The translations under genes were made by a program, and so were the position numbers. Source: an uncultured Collinsella sp. (lineage in GTDB: Bacteria > Actinomycetota > Coriobacteriia > Coriobacteriales > Coriobacteriaceae). From it: a DNA stretch of 64,000 nucleotides. Below are positions 7,586 through 52,217 of this stretch, in pieces. The notes under the pieces were generated by a model. It worked only from the letters and a program-made list of their open reading frames with translations, did not search any database and was not told the DNA's origin. The DNA is taken from contig CAKUON010000011.1 of assembly GCA_934668875.1 (NCBI GenBank), forward strand, positions 1 through 64,000, written 5' to 3'. Position 1 is the stretch's first letter; each line of letters begins with the position of its first letter.

Positions 7586-9637
7586 ATGCAGGAGGCATGG
7601 GAAGGCTTCAAGGAAGGCATCTGGACGGGAGAGGTTGACGTCCGAGACTTCATCCAGAAGAACTACACCCCCTACGAGGGCGACGAGTCGTTCCTCGCCG
7701 GCCCGACCGAGCGTACTAAGGAGCTGTGGGGCGAGGTTCTCGATCTGCTGCTCAAGGAGCGCGAGCAGGGCGGCGTCCTCGATATGGACACCAAGACTGT
7801 CACGGGTATCGTGAGCCACCCCGCTGGCTACATCGATAATGCCCATCGCGAGAAGGAGACCATCGTCGGTCTCCAGACTGACAAGCCGCTCAAGCGCGCG
7901 CTGCACGTCAACGGTGGTATCCGCATCGCTTGCCAGGCAGCCAGCCAGCACGGCTATAAGGTCGACGAGAACGTTGTCGAGCGCTACACCTTCGAGCGCA
8001 AGACCCACAACGCCGGCGTCTTCGATGTCTACACCCCCGAGATGCGTGCTTGCCGCTCGGCTCACATCATTACCGGTCTGCCCGATGGCTATGGCCGCGG
8101 CCGCATCATCGGCGACTACCGTCGTGTTGCCCTGTACGGCGTCGACTACCTGATCAAGGACAAGGAGGCCCAGAAGGCTTCCACCCCGACGGTCATGACC
8201 GCCGACAACATCCGCGATCGCGAGGAGCTGCAGGAGCAGATCCGCGCCCTCGGCGAGCTCAAGATGATGGCCGAGACCTATGGTTTCGACATTTCCAACC
8301 CTGCTACCAACACGCAGGAGGCCATCCAGTGGATGTACTTCGCCTACCTCGCTTCCGTTAAGGAGCAGAACGGCGCCGCTATGTCCATCGGCCGTACCTC
8401 TACGTTCATCGACATCTACGCTGAGCGCGATCTTGCCAACGGTACCTTCACCGAGGAGCAGATCCAGGAGTTCGTGGATCACTTCATCATGAAGCTCCGC
8501 ATGGTCAAGTTTGCCCGTACCCCCGAGTACCAGGCCCTGTTCACCGGCGATCCGCAGTGGGTCACCGAGTCCATCGGCGGCATGGGTGTCGACGGCCGTA
8601 CGCTCGTTACCAAGATGAGCTACCGCTACCTGCACACGCTCGAGAACATGGGCACCAGCCCCGAGCCCAACATGACCGTTCTGTGGTCGACCCGTCTGCC
8701 CGAGAACTTCAAGAAGTTCTGCGCCAAGACTTCTGTCGCCAGCTCCTCGATCCAGTACGAGAACGACGACCTCATGCGCGTTTACCACGGCGACGACTAC
8801 GGCATCGCCTGCTGCGTGTCCTCCATGCGCATTGGCAAGGAGATGCAGTTCTTCGGTGCCCGTGCCAACCTGGCCAAGTGCCTGCTCTACGCACTCAACG
8901 GCGGCGTTGACGAGGTTTCCAAGAAGCAGGTCGGCCCCAAGTACCGCGCCGTCGAGGGCGATACGCTCGATTACGACGACGTTGTGGCCAAGTACAACGA
9001 CATGATGAAGTGGCTCGCTGGCGTGTACGTCAACTCCCTCAACATCATTCACTACATGCACGACAAGTATTGCTACGAGCGCATCCAGATGGCTCTGCAC
9101 GACAAGCACGTGCATCGTTGGTTCGCTACGGGCATCGCTGGCCTTTCCGTTGTGGCTGACTCCCTGTCCGCCATCAAGTACGCCAAGGTCCACCCCGTCC
9201 GTGACGAGAACGGCATCATTGTCGACTTTGAGACCGAGGGCGAGTTCCCCAAGTACGGTAACGACGACGACCGCGTCGACCAGATCGCTCACGACGTTGT
9301 GCACCAGTTCATGGAGTACATCCGCATGAACGACACCTACCGCAACTCCGTGCCCACGACCTCGGTTCTGACCATCACCTCTAACGTCGTGTACGGCAAG
9401 AAGACCGGCTCTACGCCCGACGGCCGCAAGGCTGGCCAGCCGTTCGCCCCGGGTGCTAACCCCATGCACAAGCGCGATAGCCACGGCGCCATCGCTTCGC
9501 TGTCTTCGGTTTCCAAGCTCCCGTTCCGCGATGCTCAGGACGGCATCTCCAACACCTTCTCCATCATCCCGGGTGCGCTCGGCAAGGAGGACCAGGTGTT
9601 CTTTGGCGATATCGACCTTGATCAGCTGGGCGAGTAA
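7586..9637 (+). CDS. pflB: Pyruvate formate-lyase catalytic protein lacking the glycyl-radical domain
   Basis: 683 residues against about 760 for the E. coli enzyme. It aligns from the N-terminal EGFKEGIW and [12 protein letters not shown] segments through the active-site pair Cys409-Cys410 (IACCVSSM) to the end of the barrel ([17 protein letters not shown]), then stops at DLDQLGE. The C-terminal domain with the radical glycine is absent here and is encoded as its own gene 86 bases downstream. The enzyme converts pyruvate and CoA to acetyl-CoA and formate without oxygen; it must depend on the separate glycyl-radical protein. The start ATG lies 12-13 bases after AGGAG. No frameshift is seen: the end is clean and followed by a promoter-like dyad. 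Confidence 0.93.
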
Positions 9638-9722: not shown

Positions 9723-9974
9723 ATGAAGGTTTCTGAAGTTTCCGAGACTCAGGCCGATAACCTGGTCCACATGCTCGACGCTTACGCCGAGAAGGGTGGC
9801 CACCACCTGAACATCAACGTCTTCAACCGTGAGACGCTGCTCGACGCTCAGGCTCACCCCGAGAAGTACCCGCAGCTGACCATTCGCGTTTCCGGCTACG
9901 CCGTGAACTTCCACACGCTCACCAAGGAGCAGCAGGACGAGGTCATTTCGCGTACCTTCCACAACAAGTTCTAA
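9723..9974 (+). CDS. Stand-alone glycyl-radical protein completing pyruvate formate-lyase
   Basis: 83 residues. The second half matches the PFL C-terminus: [33 protein letters not shown] and [14 protein letters not shown], with the radical-bearing glycine at Gly58. It resembles E. coli GrcA (YfiD), the spare radical domain that rescues oxygen-cleaved PFL, but here the neighbouring PflB has no radical domain of its own, so this protein should be an essential subunit. The start at MKVSEVSE is chosen because GAAGGAG lies just upstream. The gene has its own promoter candidate in the 86-base gap. Confidence 0.93.
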
Positions 9975-9997
9975 AGGGATTTAACTCCCGCAGGATC

Positions 9998-10126
9998 GCC
10001 GGGGCTGTTTGGGCTACCTCCCAAAACGTCCTCGGACATGCAAGAAGCCCTCGCTGCGCACTTCGTGCGGCGAGGGCTTCTTGCGTCCTGCGGAATATTT
10101 TGGGAGGTAGCCCAAACAGCCCCGGC
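9998..10126. repeat. Composite inverted repeat, copy A
   Basis: Perfect 29-bp outer arms (9998-10026 and 10098-10126), beginning GCCGGGGCTGTTTGGGCTAC, enclose two 13-base unpaired segments, CGTCCTCGGACAT and GTCCTGCGGAATA. These in turn flank a 15-bp inner stem (10040-10054 and 10070-10084) with its own CGCA-CTTCG-TGCG tip. It follows the glycyl-radical gene and could end its transcript. The internal segments recur in other copies of the family, whose arms differ. From here to 10412 no gene is seen apart from the DegV leader hairpin. Confidence 0.9.
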
Positions 10127-10288
10127 GGGGTCCTGTGTAGTTACCCTTTAGGCGGAACTCTCCTAATGGGTTGAGCGTTCTGGATTCTTGCTTGCTACCG
10201 TTTATCGCGTATAGCTACCGTTTGCGGAATAAGTAACACTCCTTAATAAACCGTGTAGAATCTCAGATAAGCACGGAGTTTTCCAGGG

Positions 10289-12331: not shown

Positions 12332-12398
12332 AGTTGCGGTGGAATAGTTCTTGTTTTTCGGCTTATGCCGCCCAAACAGGAACTATTTCACCGCAACT
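12332..12398. repeat. Inverted repeat with GTTTTTCGGC...GCCGCCCAAAC centre
   Basis: 25-base arms starting AGTTGCGGTGGAATAGTTCT pair with two mismatches to the strand ending ACCGCAACT. The arm ends and the style of the loop match the element at 29860-29928. No gene is seen from 12260 to 12501. Confidence 0.75.
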
Positions 12399-14192: not shown

Positions 14193-14318
14193 GGGCCGCC
14201 CAAGGGTATCCCCCTAAAAACATTCCGCACGAGGCCCGCTTATCCGTAGCTCCGAAGGAGCAGGATAAGCGGGCCTCAAGTGCGAAGACGTTTTTAAGGG
14301 GATACCCTTGGGCGGCCC
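14193..14318. repeat. Composite inverted repeat, copy B (reverse orientation)
   Basis: 29-bp outer arms (14193-14221 and 14290-14318, one mismatch), beginning GGGCCGCCCAAGGGTATCCC, enclose the internal segments ATTCCGCACG and CAAGTGCGAAGAC, which are the reverse complements of those in copy A. The inner stem AGGCCCGCTTATCC/GGATAAGCGGGCCT holds a GCTCC-GAA-GGAGC tip. It lies between the convergent genes engB and thrB and may end both transcripts. Confidence 0.9.
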
Positions 14319-14339: not shown

Positions 14340-15221
14340 CTACAGGTACTCGATTTGAGCGCCCTCGGTGTCGCACGTCAGAATGCGCGTGTCACACTTG
14401 GGGAACTGCTCGCGCAGCTTGACCTGCAGGAACTTCGCCACGATGGTATCGTCGGTTACGGCCATGAGGGTCGAGCCGGAGCCGCTGATCCAGATGGTCT
14501 TTGCACCGCCGTTAAGACAGGTGTCGCGCACGGCGTTGTAGTCGGGAATCAGGCGACGGCGATAGGGCTCCTGAATACGGTCGTCATTGGCGGCGGCAAT
14601 CAGGTCCAGATCGCCGGTCTCGAGACCGCGCGTCATGCCGGCGATGCGGCCCATCTGCCATACGGCGGTGGAAAGCGGAATCTCCTGCGGCACGACCTTG
14701 CGCGCCTCACTCGTGTGTACCTCGTAGGGCGGAATCACGGTAATAAAACGCAGGCGATCGCTCACCTCGTAGCGCAGGCACTGGGGGAGCGAATCGGTCG
14801 GCGTAAAGGAGCAGACGGCGCCGCCCAGGATAGCGGGGGCGACGTTATCGGGATGGCCCTCGACCTCGGTGGCAATGCGGACGAGCTCGGCGCGGTCGAC
14901 GGTGTGGCCCGTCAGCGCGGCGGCGGCCATAATGCCGGCGACAACGCAGGTGGAGCTGGAACCCAGGCCACGAGCGACGGGAACGTCAGTCTGAATGTCG
15001 ATGGCGACGGGGAAGGCCGGCTCGCCCCATGCGGCCAGCGCATCCACAAAGCTCACGTAGACTAGGTTGTTCTCGTTTTGGAATTCCTCGGGGCAGCCCG
15101 TGATGCTGAGCTTGTCGGCGCGCTCGAAGGTGAAGTGCGAGTAGAGGCTGACGGCCATGCCGAGGGTATCGTAGCCAATGCCTAGGTTGGCGCTGGTTGC
15201 TGGGACGGTGATTTTGATCAT
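14340..15221 (-). CDS. thrB: Homoserine kinase
   Basis: 293 residues from MIKITVPATSANLGIGYDTL, a GHMP-kinase start. The ATP loop is PVARGLGSSSTC (81-92), and the C-terminal motif region is KTIWISGSGSTLMAV. It phosphorylates homoserine for threonine synthesis. AGGAGG lies six bases before the ATG, so the longer upstream frame, which runs into repeat copy C, is rejected. thrC lies upstream on the same strand, with repeat copy C and a terminator between them, so thrB may have its own promoter or be expressed by readthrough. Confidence 0.94.
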   Translation of the reverse strand: MIKITVPATSANLGIGYDTLGMAVSLYSHFTFERADKLSITGCPEEFQNENNLVYVSFVDALAAWGEPAFPVAIDIQTDVPVARGLGSSSTCVVAGIMAAAALTGHTVDRAELVRIATEVEGHPDNVAPAILGGAVCSFTPTDSLPQCLRYEVSDRLRFITVIPPYEVHTSEARKVVPQEIPLSTAVWQMGRIAGMTRGLETGDLDLIAAANDDRIQEPYRRRLIPDYNAVRDTCLNGGAKTIWISGSGSTLMAVTDDTIVAKFLQVKLREQFPKCDTRILTCDTEGAQIEYL

Positions 15222-15235
15222 GTGGGTCCTCCTGG

Positions 15236-15347
15236 GCGGGTCTGGCCGTTTAGTTCGCTGCTCGGGCAGTCCTGGCTCGCTCGGAAAGCACATTAAGTGC
15301 TTTCCGGCTCGTGCGGAACTCGCGACGAACTAAACGGCCAGACCCGC
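15236..15347. repeat. Composite inverted repeat, copy C
   Basis: Perfect 22-bp arms (15236-15257 and 15326-15347), starting GCGGGTCTGGCCGTTTAGTT, enclose CTGCTCGGGCAG and GCTCGTGCGGAACTCG, which are recognisable but diverged versions of the copy A internal segments. The inner stem CGGAAAGCAC/GTGCTTTCCG has a five-base loop. It lies 15 bases before the thrB start, so a thrB transcript reading from thrC would carry it in its leader. Confidence 0.85.
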
Positions 15348-18609: not shown

Positions 18610-19635
18610 ATGAAACAGTACACGGTTGCTATTTTGGGCGCGACGGGAGCCGTGGGCACCCAGATGTTCGAGTGTCTCAACGAGCAGGAGTTTCCGGTCG
18701 GCAAGCTCAAACTGCTAGCGAGCGCGCGCTCTGCGGGCAAGACCGTCGAGTTCCGCGGCGAGCAGGTTGTGATCGAAGAGGCTTGCCCCGAGGCCTTTGA
18801 GGGCTGCGACATCGTACTCGGCGCTGCCGGCGACGATATCGCCAAGGAGCTGCTGCCCGAGGCCGTCAAGCGCGGCGCCGTCGTGGTCGACAACAGCCAC
18901 GCCTTCCGCATGGATCCCGAGGTTCCGCTGGTCGTGCCCGAGATCAATGCCGAGGATATCAAGTGGCATCACGGCCTTATCGCCAATCCCAACTGCGCGA
19001 CCATCATCGGCCTGGTTCCCACGTGGCCGCTGCACCAGCTTGCTGGCGTGAAGCGCATGATCGTGTCCACGTATCAGGCAGCTTCGGGCGCCGGTGCCCC
19101 CGGTATGGCCGAGCTCGAGGCTCAGCTGGCCGCCCTGGGCCGCGGCGAGGAGATTCCCGAGCCGCGTGCATTTGTCGCTCAGCTGGCGAGCAACCTGATT
19201 CCGCAGATCGGCGGCGTCAAGGAGGAGGGCTTTACCTCCGAGGAGATGAAGCTGCAAAACGAGGGCCGCAAGATCATGCATCTGCCCGAGCTGCGCGTGA
19301 ACTGCACCTGCGTGCGCGTGCCCGTGCTGCGTTCGCACTCCGAGAGCATTACGCTCGAGTTTGAGCGCGACATTACGGTCGAGGAGGCTCGTGCTGCGCT
19401 GTCTGCCGCTCCGGGCGTCAAGCTGGTTGACGATATGGCTGCCGAGGATGCACACGATCGCTTCCCCATGCCAATGGACACCTCCGACCAGGATTTGATT
19501 TGGGTCGGCCGTGTGCGCCGCGACATCTCGAACCCTGAGGCCGCGCGCGGCATCACCTTCTGGTGCTGCGGCGACCAAATCCGTAAGGGCGCGGCAACCA
19601 ACGCCGTCCAGATTGCTAAGCTGCTCTGCGAGTAG
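18610..19635 (+). CDS. asd: Aspartate-semialdehyde dehydrogenase
   Basis: 341 residues from MKQYTVAILGATGAVG (NADP motif GATGAVG). The active-site Cys129 is in ANPNCATI, and the SGAGAPGMAEL segment follows. It reduces aspartyl phosphate to the semialdehyde, after LysC. AAAGGGGGAA precedes the ATG, so the longer upstream frame is rejected. The 175-base gap from lysC holds a hairpin, so co-transcription is possible but not certain. Confidence 0.95.
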   Translation: MKQYTVAILGATGAVGTQMFECLNEQEFPVGKLKLLASARSAGKTVEFRGEQVVIEEACPEAFEGCDIVLGAAGDDIAKELLPEAVKRGAVVVDNSHAFRMDPEVPLVVPEINAEDIKWHHGLIANPNCATIIGLVPTWPLHQLAGVKRMIVSTYQAASGAGAPGMAELEAQLAALGRGEEIPEPRAFVAQLASNLIPQIGGVKEEGFTSEEMKLQNEGRKIMHLPELRVNCTCVRVPVLRSHSESITLEFERDITVEEARAALSAAPGVKLVDDMAAEDAHDRFPMPMDTSDQDLIWVGRVRRDISNPEAARGITFWCCGDQIRKGAATNAVQIAKLLCE

Positions 19636-19651
19636 TGCGACCTGTCCGGCG

Positions 19652-19773
19652 GGGGCCGGGCTTAGTTTTCAAAACGTCCTCGACCATGTGTGGCGCCTTG
19701 TCCTGCTCCTTCGGAGCCGCGGACAAGGCGCCACACTGGTCTGCGGAGTGTTCTGAAAACTAAGCCCGGCCCC
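19652..19773. repeat. Composite inverted repeat, copy D
   Basis: 24-bp arms (19652-19675 and 19750-19773, one mismatch), starting GGGGCCGGGCTTAGTTTTCA, enclose GTCCTCGACCATG and CTGGTCTGCGGAGT, in the same orientation as copy A. The inner 15-bp stem is TGTGGCGCCTTGTCC and its complement. It follows asd by 16 bases. Confidence 0.9.
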
Positions 19774-19879
19774 TGCCTGCGGTGACTCGGCTGCGAGCGG
19801 CCTGCGATGGGGCCGTTGCTGGTTGGGGCCGCTGGGCTGATGTGGGGGCACGTGGCCGTTGCAGGTCCTGGTCTCGGCG

Positions 19880-29529: not shown

Positions 29530-29859
29530 ATGTCCTCCGCTCGTCAAACGGGCTTTCCATTTGCCTTTCATTCTATTTGGTTTTCGTTTGCAGGCGTGGA
29601 TGAGAGGCTCTCTTTAGTCTTCGAGATTGGGCTTGAATGGGTCGTATGCCACAAAATGGGCCTATCTACTACGTTTGCTACCACACCCTCGACCATGACA
29701 AAGATTATGAAATTAAAACCGCAGGTGGAGGGCTTGTCAATTTTCGGAAAAGGCGGGTATGGTCGGCCCTCTCGAGTTAAACGTAGTAAATAGGCCCTTT
29801 TCTTGGCGCGCGGTCAGCTCAATGCTAATCTCCGTGCCGGAACTGACCCAGTTGTTTGT
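29530..29859. other. Non-coding region with a decayed inverted repeat
   Basis: No gene is supported. GGGCCTATCTACTACGTTT (29660-29678) pairs with AAACGTAGTAAATAGGCCC (about 29779-29797) with one mismatch. Just inside the left arm is CCCTCGACCATG, which matches an internal segment of composite repeat copy D, so this may be a damaged member of that family with an AT-rich insert. Confidence 0.45.
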
Positions 29860-29928
29860 AAGTTGCGGTGATATACGGACTGTTTGGCGCTTTGGAGCCT
29901 CAAAACCGTCCCTATATCACCGCAACTT
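29860..29928. repeat. Inverted repeat, AAGTTGCGGTG type
   Basis: 26-base arms starting AAGTTGCGGTGATATACGGA pair with two mismatches; the centre is GTTTGGCGC...GGAGCCTCAAAA. The arm ends match the element at 12332 and the centre matches that at 41969. Confidence 0.75.
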
Positions 29929-30898: not shown

Positions 30899-31146
30899 GG
30901 TAGTTCCTTTCGCATGGTGATCGAATCGAATGGCTCGAGTATGTCGAGAACAACCGGTAGCGACCACCATTTCTAGTTAGAATCTGCCCCAAACCTACCG
31001 CAACTACCAGTAGCAACCCCCTACGACCAGCCATTTCATGACAAATGTCAGTGCATATAACAGCCAAGAGCCCCCATCATTCCAAATTTTCAGACCAGGC
31101 ACCCGCAGCAAGAAGACGACTAGCCTCGGCCTCCCCAGTTACCGCA
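30899..31146. other. Non-coding upstream region
   Basis: It holds the promoter of the HTH membrane-protein gene and the half-element CCTACCGCAACTACC at about 30985. No gene is seen. ATGACAAATGTCA at 31038-31050 is a weak palindrome. Confidence 0.3.
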
Positions 31147-31267
31147 GGAGGCCCCAGGGCTTACCTCCCAAATCTTTCCGCAGGACGGAAGGACCCCGCC
31201 GCGCGAAGCGCGCAGCGGGGTCCTGACATGTCCGAGGACGATTTGGGAGGTAAGCCCTGGGGCCTCC
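31147..31267. repeat. Composite inverted repeat, copy E (reverse orientation)
   Basis: Perfect 28-bp arms (31147-31174 and 31240-31267), starting GGAGGCCCCAGGGCTTACCT, enclose TTTCCGCAGGACGGA and GACATGTCCGAGGAC, the reverse complements of the copy A internal segments. The inner stem is AGGACCCCGC/GCGGGGTCCT with a GCGCG-AAG-CGCGC-like tip. It lies 24 bases after the pfk stop (minus strand). Confidence 0.9.
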
Positions 31268-31290
31268 GATGGGAGCAGTTCCAGCCGAGG

Positions 31291-32370
31291 CTATTCGTCG
31301 CCGAAGCTGATGCCCAACGATTTGGCCTCGCGCACCAGGTCGCTCTGGGGGTCGACATACTTGAGCTTGCCGGCGACCTCCTCGAGCGGCATGTGGCACA
31401 TCTTACCGTCACGCAGGGCGATCATGTAGCCAAACTCGCCACGCAGGCAGCCGAGTGCCGCCTCGACGCCGCACTGGGTCGCAAAGATGCGGTCCTGGGC
31501 ATCGGGCTGGCCGCCGCGCTGCGTGTGACCGGGGATGGCGACGCGGGTCTCGCGACCGGTCTTGGCCTCGATCTCCTTGGCGATGTCGTAGACGATCGAT
31601 GGGCTCGTGCGCTCGGCGAGCTTTTTCTTGTACTCCTTCTTGGGCAGCGCCGCGTCCTCCTTGGAGATGGCGCCCTCGGCGACGGCCACGATGGTAAAGC
31701 GGCTGCCGGTCTCCATGCGATGCTCGATGGTCTTGATGACGTTGTCCATGTCGTAGGGGATCTCGGGAATCAGGATGACGTCCGCACCGCCCGCAACGCC
31801 AGCGTACAGCGGAATCCAGCCAACCTTGTGACCCATGATCTCGATGACGAACACGCGGCCATGGCTCGAGGCGGTGGTGTGAATGTCGTCGATGCACTTG
31901 GTGGCGACGTCGATGGCACTCGTAAAGCCAAAGGTCATCTCGGTGCCCCAGGTGTCGTTATCGATGGTCTTGGGCAGGGCGATAACGTTGAGGCCCTCCT
32001 GGCGCAGGCGGTTGGCGGTCTTGGTGGAGCCGTTACCGCCCAGCATAAACAGGCAGTCGAGCTGCAGCTTGTGATAGGTGTGGACCATCGCAGGCACCTT
32101 CTCGACGCCATCGGCCTCGGGAATGTCCAGACGCTTGAAGGGCGTGCGGCTCGTGCCCAGAATGGTGCCACCGCGGGTGAGGATACCGCTAAAATCGGCT
32201 GGCGTCATGACGCGGAACCTGCTGTAGATAAGGCCCTGGTAGCCGTCCTCGAAACCGTAGATCTCAATGGGCTCTGCACTATTGGTCATGAGCGTTTTGA
32301 CAATGCCGCGCATGGTGGCGTTGAGCGCTTGGCAGTCGCCGCCACTGGTAAGAAGACCGATCCTAAGCAT
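31291..32370 (-). CDS. pfkA: 6-phosphofructokinase
   Basis: 359 residues. TSGGDCQALNA (8-18) binds nucleotide, LGGNGS (110-115) is at the Mg/phosphoryl-donor loop, and PKTIDND (133-139) carries the catalytic Asp. EVMGHKVGW-like EIMGHKVGWIP and PGHTQRGG follow. In E. coli PfkA the donor loop reads GGDGS and the later motif PGTIDND; the Lys at the latter Gly is typical of the group III / PPi-related lineage, while the Gly in GGNGS favours ATP. The donor is therefore likely ATP but not certain. GGAAGGA precedes the ATG. Confidence 0.9.
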   Translation of the reverse strand: MLRIGLLTSGGDCQALNATMRGIVKTLMTNSAEPIEIYGFEDGYQGLIYSRFRVMTPADFSGILTRGGTILGTSRTPFKRLDIPEADGVEKVPAMVHTYHKLQLDCLFMLGGNGSTKTANRLRQEGLNVIALPKTIDNDTWGTEMTFGFTSAIDVATKCIDDIHTTASSHGRVFVIEIMGHKVGWIPLYAGVAGGADVILIPEIPYDMDNVIKTIEHRMETGSRFTIVAVAEGAISKEDAALPKKEYKKKLAERTSPSIVYDIAKEIEAKTGRETRVAIPGHTQRGGQPDAQDRIFATQCGVEAALGCLRGEFGYMIALRDGKMCHMPLEEVAGKLKYVDPQSDLVREAKSLGISFGDE

Positions 32371-41968: not shown

Positions 41969-42032
41969 GAGAGTGGATAATCTCCCGTTTTTGGCCCGGT
42001 GGCGGCCTCAAAGTGGGAGATTATCCACTCTC
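41969..42032. repeat. Inverted repeat with GTTTTTGGC...GCCTCAAAG centre
   Basis: GAGAGTGGATAATCTCCC and its complement form perfect 18-bp arms. A partial third copy (ATCCACTCTCACCC) follows at 42052. The centre resembles those at 12332 and 29860 although the arms are unrelated. Confidence 0.75.
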
Positions 42033-50211: not shown

Positions 50212-50243
50212 GGGCTGGTACGGCGGCCGGTCTCGTTGTTTTG

Positions 50244-50378
50244 TCTCAATCTGTAACATCTGCAGCCATTTTTGCCGAGTAACTGTTATAGATCGAGATT
50301 TTTTCCTTAGGGGGATTTGAATGTCTCGATTTGTAACAGTTAGACGGGAATTCGGGCCATAGATGTTACAGATTGAGA
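50244..50378. repeat. Nested palindrome from four copies of an 18-bp unit
   Basis: TCTCAATCTGTAACATCT (50244) and its exact complement at 50361 form the outer pair; AACTGTTATAGATCGAGA (50281) and TCTCGATTTGTAACAGTT (50324) form the inner pair with two mismatches. All four are variants of one unit, TCTCRATYTRTAACA, in alternating orientation. No gene is seen from 49969 to 50397. Confidence 0.8.
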
Positions 50379-50397
50379 TAATCGCGCCGCGAAAATA

Positions 50398-50435: not shown

Positions 50436-52217
50436 TTACTCGTTGAGTAGCCTTACGGCCTCTGCGGCCATGTTCTCGACTGTCATACCGTTCTGCGCGA
50501 GTAGCTCGTTGGGATCGTAGCGGTCGGGGAAGCCCTTGGCGATGCCAAAGGTGCGGGTGCGCAGCGGCGTGCAAGCCAGGTAACATGCCACGCGCTCGCC
50601 CCAGCCACCGTCCAGGATGCCGTCCTCGATGGTCACGACAACGCGGTGCTCGGCGGCAAGGCTGTCGAGGAATTCGCGGTCGAGCTCGGTTGCGAAACGT
50701 GGGTTGACGAGCGTGGCCTCGATACCATACTCGGCGGCCAAGCGGTTTGCCACGCGCTCTCCCAGCTCATAGAAATCGCCGAGCGCGAGCACGGCCACAT
50801 CGCGGCCCTCGTGCGCCACGTTATAACAGGCGACGCTGTAGTCGGCGTCCTTGGCGGGCGCCAAGTCGGGGCGGCTTACCAAGCCAATGCCCGGCACGCG
50901 AATCGCCACGGGATGCTCGCGGTGATCGAGCGACCAGCTCAGCATGGACAGATATTCCTCCATGCAGACCGGCGCCAGGTAACGCATGTTGGGAAGAGCA
51001 CCCAACATGGAGATATCGAAGAACGAAAGATGCGTCTCGGACGTAGTGCCAAAGATTGACGCACCAAACACCAAAATGGTTGCGGGGGCGTCGTTGAGGC
51101 ACAGGTCGTGCCACAGCTCGTCGTAGGCGCGCTGCAAAAACGTGCCGTACACACCAAAGACTGGCTTGGCGCCCGAGCGCGCAAGCGCGGTGGCAAAGGT
51201 CACGGCGTGCTCCTCGGCAATGCCCACGTCAACAAACTGCTTGCCTGCCGCGGCGCGAAGCTCGGGTGTAAAGCCCATGATGTAGGGCGTGGCAGCCGTG
51301 ATGCCCACAACCTGCGGATCGCGCTCGATGGCAGCGCTCAGGGCCTCGCCCGTAATGTCGGCATAGGTGCGCGGTGCGGGCTCGCTCGGATGACCCGGGC
51401 AGAGCTTGCGGCCGGTCGCCATGTCAAAGGGGCCTACGTGATGCCAGCGCTCGGGGTCGCTCTGGGCCGGCTCAAAGCCCTTGCCCTTGGCGGTGGAGAC
51501 GTGCAGCACGATGGGATGATCGATATCGCGCAGTTCCTGTAGCGCGTCGACTAGGGCCAACACATCGTTGCCGGCGTCCAGATAGCGGTAGTCGAGCCCC
51601 ATCGCGCGGAAAACGTTGCGCTCGCAGGTGCCGTTGCTGGTGCGCAGCTCGGCCAGATTGCGATACAGGCCACCGTGGTTTTCGGCGATGGACTGGTCGT
51701 TGTCATTGACGACGATGATCAAGTTGCTGTCGAGCTCGGCGGCATTGTTAAAGCCCTCAAACGCCAGACCGCCCGAAAGCGAACCGTCGCCAATGATGGT
51801 AATGACGTTGTACGCATCGCCCGCCAGGTCACGAGCGTGCGCCAAGCCGCAGCCCAGGCTCACCGATGTGGAGGTGTGGCCCATGGCGAACAGGTCGTGT
51901 TCGGACTCGTCGGGATTGGCAAAGCCAGAGGCCTCGCCGTAGCGTGCCGGGTCGATATAAGTGTACGCGCGCCCAGTCAGCGCCTTGTGGGCATAGGTCT
52001 GGTGTGACACGTCAAAGACAATTTTGTCGGTGGGAGAGTTAAACACGCGATGGAGCGCGACCGTGAGCTCAACGACGCCCAGGTTGGGGGCAACGTGCCC
52101 GCCGACGGCGGCGGAGCTTTCGAGGATTGCCTGGCGGATCTCGCCGCAGAGCAGCGGAAGCTCGGCGCGGTCGAGAGCCTTGACGTCCTCGGGCGTTGTC
52201 GTTTGCGTAAGCAGCAT
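50436..52217 (-). CDS. dxs: 1-deoxy-D-xylulose-5-phosphate synthase, divergent short type
   Basis: 593 residues against about 620 for E. coli Dxs. The thiamine-diphosphate motif is IIGDGSLSGGLAFEGFNNAA, shortened GDGSLSGGLAFEGFNNA; VFDVSHQTYAHKALTGR corresponds to the E. coli DVGHQAYPHKILTGR His region, and VGIAEEHAVTFATALA carries the catalytic Glu. The domain order matches Dxs. Changes at several usual Dxs positions, such as SHQTYAHK and the NDNDQSIAENHGGLY loop, place it in a divergent clade, so another transketolase-like activity cannot be excluded. It starts isoprenoid synthesis by the MEP pathway; no other MEP gene is in the window. Confidence 0.8.
   Translation of the reverse strand: MLLTQTTTPEDVKALDRAELPLLCGEIRQAILESSAAVGGHVAPNLGVVELTVALHRVFNSPTDKIVFDVSHQTYAHKALTGRAYTYIDPARYGEASGFANPDESEHDLFAMGHTSTSVSLGCGLAHARDLAGDAYNVITIIGDGSLSGGLAFEGFNNAAELDSNLIIVVNDNDQSIAENHGGLYRNLAELRTSNGTCERNVFRAMGLDYRYLDAGNDVLALVDALQELRDIDHPIVLHVSTAKGKGFEPAQSDPERWHHVGPFDMATGRKLCPGHPSEPAPRTYADITGEALSAAIERDPQVVGITAATPYIMGFTPELRAAAGKQFVDVGIAEEHAVTFATALARSGAKPVFGVYGTFLQRAYDELWHDLCLNDAPATILVFGASIFGTTSETHLSFFDISMLGALPNMRYLAPVCMEEYLSMLSWSLDHREHPVAIRVPGIGLVSRPDLAPAKDADYSVACYNVAHEGRDVAVLALGDFYELGERVANRLAAEYGIEATLVNPRFATELDREFLDSLAAEHRVVVTIEDGILDGGWGERVACYLACTPLRTRTFGIAKGFPDRYDPNELLAQNGMTVENMAAEAVRLLNE

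Follow-up and report, generated by a model that had tools for sequence, protein, structure and literature searches.

Composite hairpins in the window

The window, a 64,000-nt stretch of Collinsella DNA, contains a gene for a grcA-type glycyl radical protein preceded by a pyruvate formate-lyase-like gene, a GHMP kinase gene, a semialdehyde dehydrogenase family gene and a phosphofructokinase gene, together with five composite inverted repeats, designated copies A to E (Table 1). Gene starts and ends were taken from a simple codon-bias gene finder. The names grcA, asd and pfkA are our presumed assignments from the Pfam families matched, and the GHMP kinase is called thrB because a threonine synthase gene adjoins it. 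Among the named relatives that match the grcA-type protein best are strains of Collinsella aerofaciens (order Coriobacteriales).

Table 1. Positions of the hairpins, their parts and the host genes in the window
Feature	Position	Strand	Details
Copy A, whole hairpin, after grcA	9997..10127	+	arms 9997-10026/10098-10127, 30/30 bp perfect; model R1 120.2 bits
Copy A, 5' loop segment CGTCCTCGGACAT	10027..10039	+	exact match
Copy A, 3' loop segment TGCGGAAT	10089..10096	+	exact match
Copy A, inner stem-loop	10040..10084	+	within 55-nt core
Copy A, basal stem 5' side CTAAAGGG, includes grcA stop codon	9971..9978	+	complementary to 10144-10151 CCCTTTAG; read from sequence
Copy B, hairpin, after thrB	14193..14318	- (motif)	arms 14193-14221/14290-14318, 29 bp, 1 mismatch; R1 76.9 bits
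Copy C, divergent relative, between thrC and thrB, antisense to both	15236..15347	+	arms 15236-15257/15326-15347, 22 bp perfect
Copy D, hairpin, after asd	19648..19777	+	arms 19648-19675/19750-19777, 28 bp, 93%; R1 84.6 bits
Copy D, loop CGTCCTCGACCAT	19675-19687	+	motif search
Copy E, hairpin, after pfkA	31147..31267	- (motif)	arms 31147-31174/31240-31267, 28 bp perfect; R1 107.7 bits
Copy E, loop CGTCCTCGGACAT	31228-31240	-	motif search
Copy E, basal stem	31115..31130	-	partner strand 31284-31299 holds pfkA stop codon
Pyruvate formate-lyase-like gene, ahead of grcA	7586-9637		Pfam PFL-like
grcA-type glycyl radical protein, upstream gene of A	9723..9974	+	Pfam Gly_radical
GHMP kinase, probably thrB, upstream gene of B	14340..15221	-	Pfam
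Semialdehyde dehydrogenase family gene, called asd, upstream gene of D	18610..19635	+	Pfam
Phosphofructokinase, called pfkA, upstream gene of E	31291..32370	-	Pfam

The five repeats, first noticed by reading the sequence, were confirmed by an inverted-repeat search of the window, which found long arms that are perfect or nearly so. Exactly five inverted repeats combine arms of at least 20 bp with a spacing of 60-85 nt, and these are A to E. A covariance model, R1, was derived from copies A, B, D and E together with five copies from the nearest genome (G001, which has 22% of sampled words in common with the window) and is tuned to long inner stems. The earlier note had placed all five copies in one family. 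Copies A, B, D and E match the model and are one family, but C was unmatched at E values up to 1 and is at best a distant relative. The loop of C carries 2+1 mismatches, and the repeat lies 14 nt before the predicted thrB start, the longest ORF start (15293) falling inside it. A second C-type copy is found elsewhere in the nearest genome (L142:6647-6789, GCTCGGGCAGTCCTG...GTGCGGAACTCGCGA, 35/37 arm positions paired).

Copies A, B, D and E, oriented alike, have the layout arm, CGTCCTC, helix, TGCGGAATG and complementary arm, with a second long stem inside. The outer arms are usually 28-29 bp long, and CGTCCTC and TGCGGAATG face each other on opposite sides as an asymmetric internal loop, beyond which lies the inner stem. 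The 3' loop of copy B is shortened to GTGCGGAATG, where the nearest genome reads GTGCTGCGGAATG. On the + strand the motif occurs in either orientation, as the earlier note described, but each of A, B, D and E has the sense orientation when compared with its upstream gene. That the arms mostly differ between copies is largely correct, and extends to the orthologue of copy A in the nearest genome, whose arms differ; the arms are not wholly free, since many have the weak consensus GGG-TTAC-T-CC-AAAAC.

A partly paired loop region and covarying stems

Allowing up to 2 mismatches, the 5' loop segment CGTCCTCGGACAT has 7 matches in the window against 1.85 expected, a number reached by 0 of 100 shuffles, and only 3 of the 7 sit in copies (A, D and E). 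The short loop motif by itself is weak evidence. Long arms were present at 41 of 42 distinct exact-motif matches from the window and loci L127-L290, most of which were chosen for carrying the element, and at 0 of 120 chance motif matches from viral contigs.

The shared segments had been described as unpaired. This holds for TC/TGC, which forms the internal loop, but the flanking TCC/GGA and the adjacent covarying helix of 4-5 bp (GGAC/GTCC, GACCA/TGGTC, GCAC/GTGC) are paired. The presence of TCC..GGA on each strand would also allow a mini-hairpin (four-way junction) reading of the loop. This reading was rejected: the helix beside TCC/GGA covaries across strands, and one continuous hairpin is therefore preferred.

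Covariation, on which the earlier note had staked its reading beforehand, lay far above the shuffled controls. An alignment of nine copies has 31 of 48 pairs varying on both sides, with 92.3% of its cells paired, compared with 75.7% in shuffles. In a larger set, 15 copies drawn from the window and the nearest genome, both sides vary in 39 of 49 pairs (29 of 35 in the outer helix), and 95.3% of cells are paired, compared with 67.6% when shuffled. The 15 copies contain 200 double-change cells, compared with 58.8 in shuffles, and none of 500 shuffles reached 200. Every covariation measure in this set fell when the partner strand was shifted by 1-3 columns.

Searches for a described counterpart gave no match above gathering score in the window (Rfam 15; copy A had a sub-threshold match to a microRNA hairpin, 37.5 vs 90 bits), no Rfam match at the elements of five loci of the nearest genome, and no published description of the Collinsella element in the open-access literature searched.

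Recurrence across genomes and at gene ends

A genome scan for further copies, proposed as a check in the earlier note, found many more. R1 has 21 matches in the nearest genome; 5 are echoes on the opposite strand, and one lacks outer arms. Across the genus, matches at an E value of 1e-5 were found in at least 31 of 43 genomes, with 13-22 matches each (echoes included) in 21 genomes and none in 12; across the family, at 1e-4, they were found in at least 38 of 65 genomes and in 3 of 6 genera. These match counts are lower bounds, as the first pass scored part of the candidates. The simple pattern GTCCTC-N(8-38)-TGCGGAATG was present in 97 of 396 genomes of the class, compared with 12 for a reversed control counted by eye, and many of its matches lack an inner stem and are coding-like. 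When an arm finder was applied to 50 pattern-matched loci, 12 hairpins in 11 loci passed. Fourteen of the remaining 39 loci, chosen for a self-complementary core, were folded, and all 15 of their matches lay in long predicted hairpins, one of them (L434, G362, second family) inside a predicted ORF.

The element is thus found in seven genomes of a second family of the order, f2 (G138, G174, G260, G304, G328, G344 and G347), and in several genomes of other genera or species of the first family, f1. Both in another genus of the first family and in the second family, the same loop is combined with unrelated arms and often with a much shorter inner stem, and some of the short forms show, by eye, a second internal loop ~8 bp further out followed by a single bulge. 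The form that is conserved comprises an outer stem of ~29 bp, the loop TCC-TC / TGC-GGA-AT and an inner stem of ~4 to 25 bp. In family f3, the one pattern match with a self-complementary core that was checked (G232) had no arms and lay inside a predicted gene.

A loop-anchored finder yielded 168 distinct copies at 149 loci, which form 24 clusters by upstream sequence (loci L027-L106 left out). Loop conservation within the 168 copies is inflated, because they were collected by loop patterns; the window itself and the chance control with viral contigs are more independent evidence. The earlier note held that all five copies adjoin gene ends. Among the 168, a sense orientation relative to the upstream gene is shared by 150, of which 148 begin 1-38 nt past the stop codon and two at 256 and 262 nt; in the 72 cases with a next gene on the same strand, that gene is at least 118 nt away. 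The remaining 18 are antisense to the nearest upstream gene and comprise sites of 12 and 5 copies and one odd copy; inspection of five antisense copies revealed no convincing sense ORF just upstream.

Sites are kept across species. Those at asd in G042, at groEL in G029 and at pta in G028 cluster with the sites of aerofaciens-like genomes, and at the groEL ends of three genomes of the second family (G138, G174 and G347) the loop is present with unrelated arms. In the nearest genome, the host genes encode PEPC, a MIP channel, PTA, Cpn60, PFOR, FBA, an aminotransferase IV, an oligopeptide ABC component, a P-type ATPase and an esterase-like protein. Hosts in the f2 and f1 relatives encode Cpn60 (three f2 genomes), Fe-ADH, pyruvate kinase, FTHFS, phosphoketolase, a TPP-enzyme piece, rubrerythrin, an AMP-binding enzyme, DJ-1, amylase, an FtsX-like permease, a DHHA2 protein, PheT, BipA and a glycosyltransferase. 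Judging from these functions, many of the host genes would be highly expressed. The loop, the placement and some of the host genes persist across the two families.

The pfkA locus was found in 22 of 23 genomes and, by eye, 14 have the element, 6 another long hairpin and 2 neither. The six other hairpins have different inner sequences, partly shared flanks and no family loop (e.g. L136:4386-4545 in the nearest genome), and perhaps represent a second loop class. At the grcA end, in loci L028 and L205 an element with a short inner stem immediately precedes what is left of an older one, which is broken at the loop and lacks its 5' arm, and in L029 the element is cut at the 3' loop. At a MAG contig end beside a grcA-type gene (L027:2200-2425), homopolymer-like sequence occupies the expected place of the hairpin, probably an assembly failure at the palindrome.

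Pairing may extend outwards around the stop codon. Such basal pairing was found in 61 of 139 unique gene-end/flank combinations, compared with 145 of 695 swapped-flank controls. It is strong at some sites (A, B and E) and was rejected as a general feature.

Arm turnover and a possible role at transcript ends

Because of the orientation, the distance to the stop codon, the spacing to the next gene and the host genes, a role at the transcript end is suggested, and we consider it probable, from sequence comparison, that the family represents structured 3'-UTR (transcript-end) elements of Coriobacteriales. The combination of variable arms with two short constant inner stretches points to a previously undescribed kind of message-end signal. 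The transcribed hairpin would mark or protect the mRNA end, either by termination without a U-tract or as a barrier to 3' exonucleases after later termination. A conserved asymmetric loop amid free stems suggests recognition, and its reader could be RNA polymerase, a termination factor or an RNase.

An ordinary intrinsic terminator with an unusually long stem, its loop conserved merely by common descent, is an unlikely alternative on these data. Like intrinsic (Rho-independent) terminators, the element is a GC-rich hairpin just past a stop codon, and at the grcA end several relatives (e.g. L033, L035 and L099) instead have, by eye, a plain hairpin followed by a T-run. In contrast to terminators, it has a second stem and a conserved asymmetric loop, and the U-tract is mostly absent after the outer arm: at least 5 T in the following 8 nt were found in 5 of 167 copies. 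A U-tract was accordingly rejected as a defining feature, being absent there in 162 of the 167. T-rich sequence after the inner loop, by the same measure, was found in 26 of 168 copies, and a terminator scan detected a hairpin with a T-rich foot inside the element at 8 of 17 ends, four of them scoring 26-28; part of the copies may therefore contain ordinary terminators. Downstream, canonical terminators (score at least 20) followed 0 of 17 element ends compared with 19 of 86 other ends, a comparison unmatched for operon position, and lower score cut-offs placed them downstream of 2 of the 17. At site B a T-run hairpin (score 19) lies ~50 nt beyond the element, so the element there may not itself terminate.

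Arm pairing is also more perfect than in the ordinary terminators that the scan found. The arms of the 168 copies comprise 4,860 Watson-Crick pairs (97.9%), 38 GU, 33 AC and 31 others, and 43 canonical terminators from the same loci comprise 344 Watson-Crick, 14 GU, 8 AC and 9 others. Non-Watson-Crick pairs thus make up 102 of 4,962 (2.1%) compared with 31 of 375 (8.3%), although the anchoring rules of the two scans differ. Sharing of one loop by two families whose arms look unrelated further argues against ordinary terminators.

In a comparison intended to tell selection on RNA from selection on DNA, GU pairs are not clearly favoured over AC mismatches in the arms (a smaller first count gave 6 GU and 11 AC) or in the control terminators, and there is therefore no clear sign of RNA-level selection. 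At orthologous gene ends of different species the arms, the inner stem or both differ. Along 80 closest-orthologue edges, with 11 saturated edges set aside, 75 changes were compensated and 73 uncompensated. Transversions account for 27 of the 75 compensated changes, and these cannot have passed through a GU pair. Adjacent compensated pairs numbered 12 compared with 5.7 expected (p 0.003). Template switching during replication, which would copy one arm onto the other, probably helps to keep the arms perfect. Copying of this kind would erase the loop, which selection would preserve. The clustered changes could also stem from recombination with an allele that has diverged. Template switching is described as a mechanism for compensated changes in RNA genes (PMC8794818). 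The element resembles the template-switched hairpins of that source in its multi-base compensated changes and perfect stems, but differs from them in the conserved asymmetric loop that persists within its stem.

Template switching might also act alone, making and keeping palindromes near gene ends with nothing selected. Clustered compensated changes that include transversions, the published mechanism and the basal pairing that enters the coding end at several sites are all consistent with such a by-product. Unselected switching should symmetrise loops, by our reasoning, yet two families share the asymmetric TC/TGC loop, and the sense orientation is left unexplained; we regard this origin as very improbable. 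The earlier note had proposed selection for a folded shape with a recognised internal loop. That proposal is supported by the conserved asymmetric loop and the conserved placement, which are better evidence than the covarying arms. Perfect covarying arms are by themselves no proof of shape selection, since template switching in DNA can make them, and recognition is our interpretation of the loop. The many orthologous sites, the arm turnover and the conserved asymmetric loop offer a natural experiment on long perfect stems, in which the loop helps to tell mutation-driven pairing from selection.

Watson-Crick arms without clear GU preference also fit a folded-DNA recombination or transposition site that is read as a single-stranded hairpin, as are attC or REP/RAYT sites. 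The 55-nt core holding the inner stem-loop of copy A recurs unchanged at three sites whose arms differ, one site has arms 96% alike with a different inner stem, and two truncated copies (L028/L205 and L029) are broken at the loop, all of which would suit such an element. Integron attC sites are folded and lie directly behind a gene, with varying arms while pairing and some unpaired bases persist. The element shares the position, the variable arms and the kept pairing but, unlike attC sites, it lies behind core genes at cross-species sites, and no cassette arrays were noticed. Many sites are common to several species and some to both families, which argues against this reading, and recent mobile insertion was set aside as the main view because so many sites are common across species. 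All 6 genomes tested carry Y1 transposase genes. In the four whose coordinates were compared by eye (G001, G002, G007 and G024), a single Y1 gene (G002:C1:96294) comes within 1 kb of an element, and no Y1 gene has elements on both sides. A transposon-like MITE would show sequence-conserved terminal repeats and target duplications; the arms of the element are not conserved in sequence, and no target duplication was noticed at the sites inspected. Overall, a folded-DNA site seems rather unlikely.

REP elements (GTAG-/CGTC-tagged) are dispersed extragenic palindromes that lie mostly close behind coding regions and are thought to be transcribed; their stems are 5-13 bp long, and the CGTC superfamily has a stem of 8-9 bp and a loop of 4-5 nt (PMC3733652). 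The Collinsella element is similar in being dispersed behind coding regions and in having a CGTC tetranucleotide beside a stem. It differs in its outer stems, mostly 28-29 bp rather than 8-9 bp (110 of 168 copies; shortest 18), in conserving an internal loop instead of an end tag, and in its number of ~13-22 model matches per genome, echoes included. Its CGTC lies inside the hairpin, between the stems and opposite TGCGGAATG, whereas that of the REP superfamily is described there as an unpaired tag at one end, the other end having a CCA-type tail.

A last alternative is that the elements are processing sites of RNase III or another 3' UTR enzyme, setting mRNA decay rather than ending transcription. 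Known RNase III substrates resemble a long stem with an asymmetric internal loop, and both the sense orientation and the 28-29 bp arms seen in 110 of the 168 copies would suit such a site. The stems exceed the length that RNase III needs, which is shorter, and we hold this alternative to be highly unlikely.

Within the preferred reading as structured transcript-end elements, a more specific form can be put forward tentatively. The family may be a Coriobacteriales-specific module whose stems need no particular sequence and are rewritten by template switching, and whose sole conserved information is the small asymmetric loop; a dedicated factor would read this loop and either end transcription or set the 3' ends of central-metabolism mRNAs; we think this possible but doubtful. 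If the loop is the signal, it would provide U-tract-independent ending or protection of mRNAs in a major gut lineage, and a handle for finding its factor.

Other hairpins occur in the window. A second dispersed family with conserved outer arms, AGTTGCGGTG...CACCGCAACT, lies at 12332-12398 and 29860-29928; it is also present in the nearest genome (L136:5790, L137:11918) and beside or at the pfkA site elsewhere (e.g. L168). An AT-rich composite inverted repeat, TCTCRATCTGTAACA, at 50241-50381, 3' of a - strand gene (50436-52217), has outer and inner stems that are alike; its nested design is that of the main family and its sequence is different. A hairpin at 41969-42032 (GAGAGTGGATAATCTCCC...) has identical 18-bp arms in the nearest genome (L147:2553-2616), and an inverted repeat at 29658-29797 (GGGCCTATCTACTACGTTT), with 102 nt between its arms, is also found there (L136:5922-6061).
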